DNA from: an uncultured Pelagibacteraceae bacterium
Lineage (GTDB): Bacteria; Pseudomonadota; Alphaproteobacteria; Pelagibacterales; Pelagibacteraceae
Assembly: GCA_902540235.1 (NCBI GenBank)
Contig: CACBLI010000006.1
Coordinates: forward strand, 1-64,000
DNA length: 64,000 bases
Direction: 5' to 3'
The stretch's first letter is position 1; the number at the start of each line of letters is the position of its first letter. Both the position numbers and the translations under genes were made by a program. Below the pieces are notes generated by a model, which made no database searches, was not told the origin of the DNA, and saw only the letters and a list, made by a program, of their open reading frames with translations. Shown here one piece after another: positions 51,426 to 54,317 of this stretch.

Positions 51426-52570
51426 TGAAAAAAATAGCTGTAATTGGCGCTGGTATTTCAGGACTATTCATTGCTAATTTATTTAAGAGAAATAAAAAGT
51501 ATCAAGTAACTATCTTTGAAAGAAATAGCTCAATCAATTTGAAAGAAGGTTACGGTATTCAATTATCTGTCAACAGCATCAAACTTCTAAATAAAATTCA
51601 GTTTGATAAATTAGAAAATAATGAGAAATTTAATCCAGATAAAATCAATTTTTATTCAATTAAAAATTCCAAAAAGATATGTGAGTTAAATATATCAGAT
51701 TTTAATACTGAAAATTGTAAATATACTACTCTTAGAAGATCATCATTTATTAATTTTTTAAAAAAGGATTTAGAAAAAGAAATAAAATTTGACCACACTA
51801 TTTCAAAGATAGAACAGCAAGATCAAATCGTTAAAATCACTTTTAAAAATAATGAAATTTATGAATTCGACTATTTAGTTATTTCAGATGGTGTCTTTTC
51901 AAAGAGTAAAAGTTTGTTATCAAAAAATAAAACTGAACCAAAATTTAATGATACGTTAGCTATTAGAGGAATAATACCAAGCCATTCAAATATGGCTGAT
52001 AAAAAAAACATTTCATTGTTTTTAGGTTCAAATTTTCATTATGTTATTTATCCAGTATCTCCAGATGGAGATTTAAACTTTATAGCTGTAATGAAATATC
52101 AACTTTCAGAGGATGAGCAAAAAGATTACTCGTTGTTTAATGACAATATTTTTATTAATAAGATTTTAGATAAAGTTCCGGACATAAATAAGAATTTTTT
52201 TGATAATATTGATGATCTAAAGATATATCCAGTATTTATCAGCCATGATTTTTTTAAAGTTAAAAACAATAATATTCATTTAATAGGAGATGCTTTTTTT
52301 GCTTTTCCACCATCATTTGCTCAAGGTGCATCACAATCAATAGAGGGTGCATATGAATTATTTGAGAATATACAGAATAATACTGAAGATAATTTTTTTA
52401 AAAATAGAGTTAATAAAACAAAAATGGTTAATAATCGCTCAAAGTTTAATCAATTTGCTTTTCATTTATCTAATCCATTAACAACATTATTGAGAAATAT
52501 TTTTTTGAAAAGATTGGTAAAAAACAAAAAGTTTTTAGAGAGCTATCTTGGTAAAATATATAAAAACTAA
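51425..52570 (+). CDS. FAD-dependent monooxygenase
   Basis: 381 residues. The N-terminal Rossmann motif AVIGAGISGLFIANLFKRN, the VISDGVFSKSK segment and the C-terminal LIGDAFFAFPPSFAQGASQ (GD motif) identify a class A flavoprotein monooxygenase, of the group with UbiH and salicylate hydroxylase-like enzymes. The substrate is unknown. A ubiquinone ring hydroxylase is possible but no specific signature decides it. Its last stop base set (CTAA) is shared with ccrM. Confidence 0.85.
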   Translation: MKKIAVIGAGISGLFIANLFKRNKKYQVTIFERNSSINLKEGYGIQLSVNSIKLLNKIQFDKLENNEKFNPDKINFYSIKNSKKICELNISDFNTENCKYTTLRRSSFINFLKKDLEKEIKFDHTISKIEQQDQIVKITFKNNEIYEFDYLVISDGVFSKSKSLLSKNKTEPKFNDTLAIRGIIPSHSNMADKKNISLFLGSNFHYVIYPVSPDGDLNFIAVMKYQLSEDEQKDYSLFNDNIFINKILDKVPDINKNFFDNIDDLKIYPVFISHDFFKVKNNNIHLIGDAFFAFPPSFAQGASQSIEGAYELFENIQNNTEDNFFKNRVNKTKMVNNRSKFNQFAFHLSNPLTTLLRNIFLKRLVKNKKFLESYLGKIYKN

Positions 52571-53637
52571 TTATTAGAAATTAATCTTTGTCTTAAATGA
52601 TCGATAGGAACCGCGTTTCCATTCAAGTTATAATGCCAATAGGTCCATCCATTACAGCTTTCAGCTCCTAAGATTGTAGCTGCTACTTTATGAATTGAGC
52701 CTTCAGTTTGAGCATGTTTAATACTGCCATCTGCCCTAATTTTTGCGCTAATTTCCTTTTTATTATCAAAAATAGTAGTTCCTGGTTTTATTATTCCTAA
52801 TTCAACTAAAGAACCAAAAGGTATTCTTGGTTTAGATCTACCATTTTGCAAAGTATCTAAATTATCATCCTCTAAAGGTTTTGTTTTCTTTAGTCTTTGT
52901 TCAGCAGCTTTAAAATAGGTTTTTTCTTTTTCAATCCCGTAATAATTTCTACCTAATTTTTTTGCAACAGTTGATGTTGTTCCTGATCCTAAAAAAGGAT
53001 CTAAAACAAAATCATTTTTATTTGTCGTTGCTAATAAAATTCTGTGAAGTAGAGCTTCAGGTTTTTGAGTAGAATGTACTTTTTTTCCATTCTTTTTTAG
53101 TCTTTCAGAACCATTACAAATCGGCAATTCCCAGTTAGATCTCATTTGAAGATCATCATTTAAACATTTTAAGGATTGATAATTAAAAGTATATTTTGAT
53201 TTTTCAGACTTAGATGCCCAAATTAAAGTTTCGTGGGCATTGGTGAAACGAGTTCCTCTAAAATTTGGCATTGGATTTTTTTTATTCCAAATGACGTCAT
53301 TTAAAATCCAAAAACCTAAATTTTGAATAGCTGAACCAACTCTAAATATATTGTGATAACTACCAATTACCCAAATAGCTCCATCTTTTTTTAAAATTCT
53401 TTTACATTCGCTTAACCATGAATAAGTGAAGTCATCATATTTTTTGAAATTTTCAAATTGATCCCATTTATCATTTACCGCGCTAACTTTAGATCTATCT
53501 GGTCTTGTAAGTTCACCTTTTAATTGTAGGTTGTAGGGAGGGTCGGCAAAGATTAAATCAAAAGTTTCATCAGGAATTTTTTTTAGTTCTTTTAAACTAT
53601 CACCATTAATTAATTTATTTTTTAAGTTTAAATTCAT
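52567..53637 (-). CDS. ccrM: CcrM-type adenine DNA methyltransferase (GANTC)
   Basis: 356 residues from MNLNLKNKLINGDSLKELKK; a longer frame to 53679 is excluded because a promoter lies inside it. Motif IV is FADPPYNLQLKGEL, motif I is LDPFLGSGTTSTVAKKLG, and the C-terminal domain includes KIRADGSIKHAQTEGSIHKV and ESCNGWTYWHYNLNG, as in Caulobacter CcrM. CcrM methylates A in GANTC once per cell cycle. The methyltransferase has no restriction partner here. Its stop is shared with the FAD monooxygenase gene. Confidence 0.95.
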   Translation of the reverse strand: MNLNLKNKLINGDSLKELKKIPDETFDLIFADPPYNLQLKGELTRPDRSKVSAVNDKWDQFENFKKYDDFTYSWLSECKRILKKDGAIWVIGSYHNIFRVGSAIQNLGFWILNDVIWNKKNPMPNFRGTRFTNAHETLIWASKSEKSKYTFNYQSLKCLNDDLQMRSNWELPICNGSERLKKNGKKVHSTQKPEALLHRILLATTNKNDFVLDPFLGSGTTSTVAKKLGRNYYGIEKEKTYFKAAEQRLKKTKPLEDDNLDTLQNGRSKPRIPFGSLVELGIIKPGTTIFDNKKEISAKIRADGSIKHAQTEGSIHKVAATILGAESCNGWTYWHYNLNGNAVPIDHLRQRLISNN

Positions 53638-53650
53638 TTTATAAAAATAA

Positions 53651-53679
53651 ATTAGACTCCAAAAAGATTCTTGGGTCAA
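53651..53679 (-). promoter_or_regulatory. ccrM promoter with two GANTC sites
   Basis: On the minus strand: TTGACC (-35, 53679-53674), 17 bases, TCTAAT (-10, 53656-53651); each hexamer matches 5 of 6 consensus positions. Two GANTC sites lie in it: GATTC at 53666-53670 in the spacer and GACTC at 53655-53659 touching the -10, their starts 11 bases apart. The predicted transcript begins about 7 nt before the ccrM ATG. It is the best sigma70-like match I noticed in the window. Confidence 0.65.
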
Positions 53680-53728
53680 CCTAGGATTGAATTATTTGAA
53701 CTTGATATGTGTAGTTTTTTTTTAAGAT

Positions 53729-53756: not shown

Positions 53757-54317
53757 TTATTTATAACTCATAATTGGATTAAAAGTGACTCTATGATGTT
53801 TTGTAATACCAAGTTTTTTTATGGCTTTTAAATGTTGCTTAGTCCCATAACCAAAATTTTGATCCCAACAATAACCATCAAACTTTTTTGACAAATTTGT
53901 TATCATTTTATCTCGAGAAACCTTGGCAATAATTGAGGCCGCAGATATAGATGGTATTTTTTGGTCTCCCTTTATTACAGCTTTAAGATGATAATTTTTA
54001 ATTTTTGGCAATTTATTACCATCGATAAAAATTAAGTGAGGTTTTTTTTTGAGCTTTTTTATTGCCCTTTTCATTGCAAGTAAACTTGCTTGTAAAATAT
54101 TTTTTTTTTCAATTTCCGCAACTGTAGCTCTACCTACTGCCCAGATTGAATTTTTTTTGATATACTTAGATAATACTTCTCTATTAGATTTATTTAAACT
54201 TTTAGAGTCCTTTAGTAATTTTTTATCTATAGTCCTATTTAATATTACTGCAGCTGCATAAACTGGACCAATTAAACTACCTCGTCCGACCTCATCTACT
54301 CCTGCAATCAATCTCAT
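53757..54317 (-). CDS. rnhB: ribonuclease HII
   Basis: 186 residues. Motifs IAGVDEVGRGSLIGPVYAAA (catalytic Asp and Glu), LIFIDGNKLP and SAASIIAKVSRDKMI are diagnostic. It cleaves RNA-DNA junctions and removes misincorporated ribonucleotides. Its start overlaps the udg stop by one base, and ccrM follows after 119 nt. The rnhB-ccrM adjacency is common in alphaproteobacteria. Confidence 0.98.
   Translation of the reverse strand: MRLIAGVDEVGRGSLIGPVYAAAVILNRTIDKKLLKDSKSLNKSNREVLSKYIKKNSIWAVGRATVAEIEKKNILQASLLAMKRAIKKLKKKPHLIFIDGNKLPKIKNYHLKAVIKGDQKIPSISAASIIAKVSRDKMITNLSKKFDGYCWDQNFGYGTKQHLKAIKKLGITKHHRVTFNPIMSYK

Follow-up and report, generated by a model that had tools for sequence, protein, structure and literature searches.

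In restriction-modification systems of the CfrBI type, the methylase gene is autoregulated: its promoter contains sites whose methylation controls expression. Among cell-cycle methylases, the closest described systems come from Caulobacter. Caulobacter GcrA is described as a protein that binds sigma region 2 and prefers methylated GANTC (PMC7403470, PMC3667746); where promoters are methylated, it increases both affinity and the formation of open complexes (PMC7403470). Its binding is best when DNA is fully methylated, and methylation is required by several Caulobacter promoters (PMC3667746). For instance, activity falls by 60-80% when GANTC is changed to GCNTC in PmipZ, whose two GANTC sites are juxtaposed, and in other targets (PMC3667746). 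Moreover, Caulobacter transcription starts that have GANTC between the -10 and the -35 make up a temporal class of their own, at 40-60 min (PMC4287350), and YGAKTCG has been quoted as an extended GcrA motif for activation in Caulobacter (PMC7987155).

Methylation-sensitive expression of ccrM itself is already known in Caulobacter, where the gene is described as active from hemimethylated DNA only, via a CtrA promoter (PMC2217572), and a review considers CtrA control of ccrM likely to be general (PMC6090056). Pelagibacter has been reported to lack CtrA (PMC2877005) and to methylate GANTC in nature; in the ocean, most of its GANTC sites are methylated, though less so close to the origin (PMC9516812). 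Here, we describe a ccrM promoter from this group that differs from the Caulobacter one in the promoter itself, in a geometry that recurs across the class, and in a genus-specific palindrome. We found no description of this fixed dual-GANTC core at ccrM, or of its spread, in the open-access literature consulted.

The window, meaning the whole stretch of DNA analyzed (64,000 nucleotides, from an uncultured Pelagibacteraceae bacterium), encodes one full-length CcrM, the sole such copy in its genome. The product carries the Pfam domains N6_N4_Mtase (2.5e-69) and RAMA (6.4e-19), both above cut-off, and aligns with Caulobacter CcrM (6pbd) at 1.3e-142 across residues 8-351, with 57% identity (alignment A1). 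Full-length similarity together with these two domains places the protein in the CcrM group. The NCBIfam CcrM equivalog NF050803 is its top match, at 580.9 bits against a cut-off of 830 bits, and orthology is therefore argued from full-length similarity and from the rnhB-ccrM gene order; its GANTC specificity is predicted. Some same-genus genomes encode a second, shorter methylase (e.g., G139:C2:31278-32045 and G072:C22:5413-6093), which shares 45-47% identity with the N-terminal portion of CcrM and is without the C-terminal part.

Facing ccrM on the minus strand is a TTGACC-N17-TCTAAT promoter within the region ...TTCAATCCTAGGTTGACCCAAGAATCTTTTTGGAGTCTAATTTATTTTTATAAAATG, with CAAGAATCTTTTTGGAG as the 17-bp spacer (Table 1). 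It contains two GANTC sites whose starts lie 11 bp apart: GAGTC overlaps the -10 by two bases, and GAATC, in the spacer, touches neither hexamer. The first-pass annotation had drawn this layout, and all its coordinates hold on rereading. It had also excluded a longer ccrM start at 53679, and we agree, because that codon, a TTG, sits on the -35 hexamer and the frame is closed there in many relatives, which leaves the ATG at 53637 on the minus strand as the start; the open frame is 356-359 aa long in same-genus relatives. The distance from TCTAAT to the ATG is conserved at 12-13 nt in 91 of the 99 genomes scored, and a transcription start 7 nt past the -10 would give ccrM a leader of only about 7 nt. 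A -10 placed at TAATTN instead, 19 bp from the -35, is disfavored: within the genus, the -7 base of that alternative varies, and with the 17-bp spacer it is always T.

Table 1. Features at the ccrM locus, in positions of the window
Feature	Position	Strand	Remarks
ccrM	52567..53637	(-)	adenine-N6 DNA methyltransferase, 356 aa, GANTC-type
Predicted 7-nt leader	53638..53644	(-)	start at 53644 placed by the spacing rule only
-10 element TCTAAT	53651..53656	(-)	near-invariant in genus; non-consensus C at -11 imposed by GAGTC
-10-overlapping GANTC (GAGTC)	53655..53659	(-); plus strand GACTC	84/85 distinct same-genus cores, N always G
Spacer GANTC (GAATC)	53666..53670	(-); plus strand GATTC	GANTC in 74/85 distinct same-genus cores
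-35 element TTGACC	53674..53679	(-)	GTTGAC invariant in 85 distinct same-genus cores
Palindromic element TTCAATCCTAGGTTGAC	53675..53691	(-)	covers ccrM -35; TTCAATC-N4-GTTGAC, i.e., TCAA-N7-TTGA
Decayed third GANTC position	53699..53703	(-)	AAGTT in window; GANTC in 53/85 same-genus cores
rnhB (ribonuclease HII)	53757..54317	(-)	Pfam 4.4e-42; directly upstream of ccrM, same strand

Conservation within the genus was read from 130 upstream regions, which reduce to 85 distinct cores; ccrM was found in 150 of 201 same-genus genomes. These sequences are related, so their counts are not independent, and a set with one genome per family serves as the control. All 130 regions carry the promoter in one fixed register. 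GTTGAC is present in every distinct core, and the -10 GAGTC is retained in all but one, always with G at N. The spacer GANTC is kept in 74 of the 85, compared with a mean of 4.2 and a maximum of 11 under within-spacer shuffles. It lies 11 bp from the -10 site in 41 cores and 12 bp in 33, its N is A in 50, C in 19, G in 4, and T in 1, and its flanking bases are close to random; the 11 losses all look like single-base changes. Because N varies, the register shifts by 1 bp, and the neighbors are randomized, what is retained is GANTC and not one fixed sequence. Most other members of the genus have a third GANTC, located 24 bp upstream of TTGAC, at a position where the window has none (Table 1).

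A sigma70 -10 element prefers A at -11, its most important base. At ccrM, the C contributed by GANTC falls exactly there, making the hexamer non-consensus at that base, and C occupies -11 in all 85 distinct cores. Recognition by sigma70 explains neither this invariant C nor the G-A-G ahead of the -10. The comparisons establish, at the level of sequence conservation, that selection has kept both core-promoter sites as GANTC. The earlier proposal of a methylation-set promoter would have fallen had the GANTC positions varied while the -35 and -10 held, and this was not the case.

The arrangement is also nearly private to ccrM. A search of 14 SAR11 genomes for TTGAC-N3-5-GANTC-N5-7-GANTC, run alongside a control pattern, gave a single match per genome in 12 (that of the window and 11 others), always at ccrM, and the control gave one match in total over the same 14 genomes. 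No SAR11 regulon with the same core emerged, as other GANTC matches in the -10 register were at or below the level of a reversed control, and the other GANTCTAATT places that we read in the window's genome are without such a -35. GANTC is depleted across positions 1-64000, with 98 sites seen against 180 expected from dinucleotides, or about half. Given this depletion, the conservation counts, and a pattern that occurs once per genome at ccrM, chance placement of the promoter sites is rejected. In ten non-SAR11 genomes, the matches again fell at ccrM or at no more than two other loci. Two of these alphaproteobacteria (L548 and L549; G409 and G334) have a second TTGAC-GANTC-GANTC promoter directly before a divIC/ftsB-like division gene. 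Use of the promoter by phages was considered and set aside: viral contigs gave 16 and 66 matches, about or below chance by a rough estimate, and in those viral loci a tblastn search with CcrM found no more than two methylase matches, both weak (23% identity).

Beyond the genus, GANTC occurs at the same geometry in different sequence contexts. In family f2 of the same order, genera g7, g9, and g10 have GANTC at +8/9 and +19 from TTGAC, and g8 has the +19 site only. Within the window's own family (f1), genus g5 has GANTC at +9 and +25. The +25 site (TTGAATC; L206-L220) is the -10 GANTC moved to the other side of the -10, with the overlap kept in a different register. Both sites are lost in g2 and in two of the three g4 genomes, which keep ccrM and GcrA, so the layout is not essential everywhere.

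The dual-GANTC core was recovered in 28 of 69 alphaproteobacterial families, each represented by a single genome; shuffling gave a mean of 0. Measured from TTGAC, the GANTC sites show peaks at +19 (29 families), at +8 to +10, and at -15. When the 29 families are aligned on TTGAC and the +19 GANTC, A(-11) and T(-7) are each present in 100% with a 17-bp spacer; these bases were not used for the alignment and are thus an independent sign of a real -35/-10 promoter in which GANTC overlaps the -10 at -12. The overlapping GANTC accordingly places its C at -12 in these families, compared with -11 in the window. Among named genomes, grouped by hand from their names, the core is present in 34 of 40 Rhodobacterales and in none of 16 Caulobacteraceae or 11 Hyphomicrobiales, and a loose CtrA-like pattern matches in 8 of the 16 Caulobacteraceae and 9 of the 11 Hyphomicrobiales. 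The Caulobacter vibrioides genome has no match to the fixed geometry of TTGAC with GANTC at +8/9 and +19/20. Together with the searches above, these surveys show that TTGAC followed by one GANTC and by a second that touches the -10 is a layout that recurs class-wide.

The first-pass annotation had suggested that the promoter may be a compact autoregulatory switch of a SAR11-like cell, set by methylation; it had mentioned neither GcrA, nor the third upstream GANTC position, nor the palindrome described below. The conservation of both sites as GANTC favors the switch, and its class-wide recurrence removes the idea that it is special to such a cell. By these sequence comparisons, the dual-GANTC core is not an invention of SAR11 but probably an old alphaproteobacterial device.

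In the window's genus, a palindrome overlies the -35. Its two halves, TTCAATC and GTTGAC, are near-invariant within the genus, exact copies occur once per genome and only at ccrM (10 genomes), and it was not seen in the other genera examined. The geometry resembles that of a CtrA box, though no CtrA was recognized in the genome and the sequence is TCAA-N7-TTGA rather than TTAA-N7-TTAA at the -35. The genome has four OmpR-type regulators, one of them PhoB, and none reaches CtrA by a model trained on Rhodobacterales, in an assembly about 90% complete; no CtrA was thus recognized among them as a reader of the palindrome.

GcrA, the known reader of methylated GANTC, is encoded in the window's genome (PF07750, about 1.8e-36 to 1.9e-36; G000:C11:21284-21718). 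In its DNA-binding and sigma-binding domains, the protein agrees with the Caulobacter GcrA of solved structure, and a close same-genus GcrA, used as the query in place of the genome's own copy, matches structures 7ye1, 5yiu, and 5yix. GcrA was detected in 53 of 61 same-genus genomes and in 32 of 34 genomes of the order. Two order members that have both GANTC sites, G204 (99% complete) and G210, gave no GcrA match. We looked in the order genomes for joint loss of GcrA and of the GANTC sites and did not find it, which weakens the GcrA reading but does not overturn it. The extended motif YGAKTCG, which comes from Caulobacter only, is not matched, as the sites here read A-GAATC-T and G-GAGTC-T.

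We consider it highly probable that GANTC matters for the ccrM promoter as a methylation target. An enzyme's own target sites in its promoter, in a layout that recurs across many families, suggest that CcrM marks probably control CcrM production, and because GcrA is encoded here, methylation probably acts through GcrA-sigma70. We therefore propose, with moderate confidence and from sequence comparison, that the promoter is of the sigma70 type and gated by the methylation state of the GANTC sites it contains, with GcrA-sigma70 as the most likely reader. The overlap with GANTC would weaken the -10 (through C at -11 here and at -12 elsewhere) and make the promoter dependent on GcrA, which would promote opening of the complex where GANTC is methylated. 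Once the replication fork had passed, the sites would be hemimethylated and ccrM transcription would rise, and new CcrM would then restore full methylation and turn the promoter down. CcrM supply would in this way follow the amount of unmethylated DNA, and with it replication, without CtrA. The sign of the response, on when hemimethylated and off when fully methylated, is the least certain step, and we hold its two directions in even balance: since fully methylated DNA is what Caulobacter GcrA binds best (PMC3667746), full methylation could as well activate the promoter as repress it.

Feedback might instead be passive, with N6-methyladenine within the spacer and at the edge of the -10 directly weakening polymerase binding or melting so that full methylation represses without GcrA. 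The two-base overlap with the -10 and the presence of both sites in two close relatives without a detected gcrA fit this alternative, which we nevertheless think unlikely, as GcrA is nearly universal in the order, the spacer site is conserved though it touches neither hexamer, and GcrA targets elsewhere have GANTC between the -10 and the -35 (PMC4287350). Another improbable scheme is positive feedback through GcrA, whereby full methylation is the on state, CcrM sustains itself, and loss of methylation shuts ccrM off. It draws on the preference of GcrA for fully methylated GANTC and on the several Caulobacter promoters that require methylation (PMC3667746); however, self-reinforcing methylase expression would not track replication, and the hemimethylated state is the one in which Caulobacter ccrM is said to be on (PMC2217572), albeit from a CtrA promoter. 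That CcrM parked on unmethylated or hemimethylated promoter sites blocks polymerase is very improbable: the core promoter of ccrM does hold a cluster of the enzyme's target sites, but we found no CcrM precedent in the literature consulted, and a low enzyme copy number would face more than 1,000 competing genomic sites. Finally, there is only a slight chance that the sequence is conserved as a strong sigma70 site or for another regulator with GANTC incidental, as the invariance of GAGTCTAAT in the genus even at N and the unexplained palindrome over the -35 might suggest, given that the spacer site varies in both N and register, that other genera and families hold the geometry in different contexts, and that C at -11 goes against sigma70 preference.

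If our preferred reading of GcrA-sigma70 gating is true, ccrM is a self-sensing locus. The promoters described here bear on the timing of CcrM outside Caulobacter-like bacteria, argue against general CtrA control in SAR11, Rhodobacterales, and many other families, and suggest how very abundant sea bacteria that lack CtrA may couple methylation of their DNA with its replication. The fixed DNA geometry and its natural losses (g2, g4, and the 11 single-base losses of the spacer site) provide ready material for comparison. We also posit, tentatively and at somewhat less than even confidence, that the self-reading ccrM promoter (TTGAC with GANTC at +8/9 and +19/20) represents an old alphaproteobacterial control in which CcrM supply follows replication via GcrA-sigma70, that control by CtrA was a later takeover in the lineages of Caulobacter and Rhizobium relatives, and that SAR11 has a GcrA-CcrM loop free of CtrA.

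The closest known systems include those methylated sigma70 promoters of Caulobacter crescentus that depend on GcrA (mipZ, podJ, pleC, and ctrA P1). The promoter described here shares with them GANTC in the core promoter and a GcrA encoded in the genome, and mipZ likewise has two juxtaposed GANTC sites (PMC3667746). Unlike them, its target is ccrM itself, which would close the loop, its geometry is fixed, it does not match YGAKTCG, and its dependence on GcrA is putative. With the Caulobacter ccrM promoter it shares the gene, methylation sensitivity (PMC2217572; putative here), and GANTC near the start (L344); that promoter, in contrast, has a CtrA box (TTAA-N7-CTAA in L344) and CtrA and is without the TTGAC-GANTC-GANTC core. 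The window's ccrM resembles the CfrBI type in that its core promoter includes the site recognized by the methylase it encodes, and it differs in being an orphan cell-cycle methylase with GcrA as a putative dedicated methylation reader.
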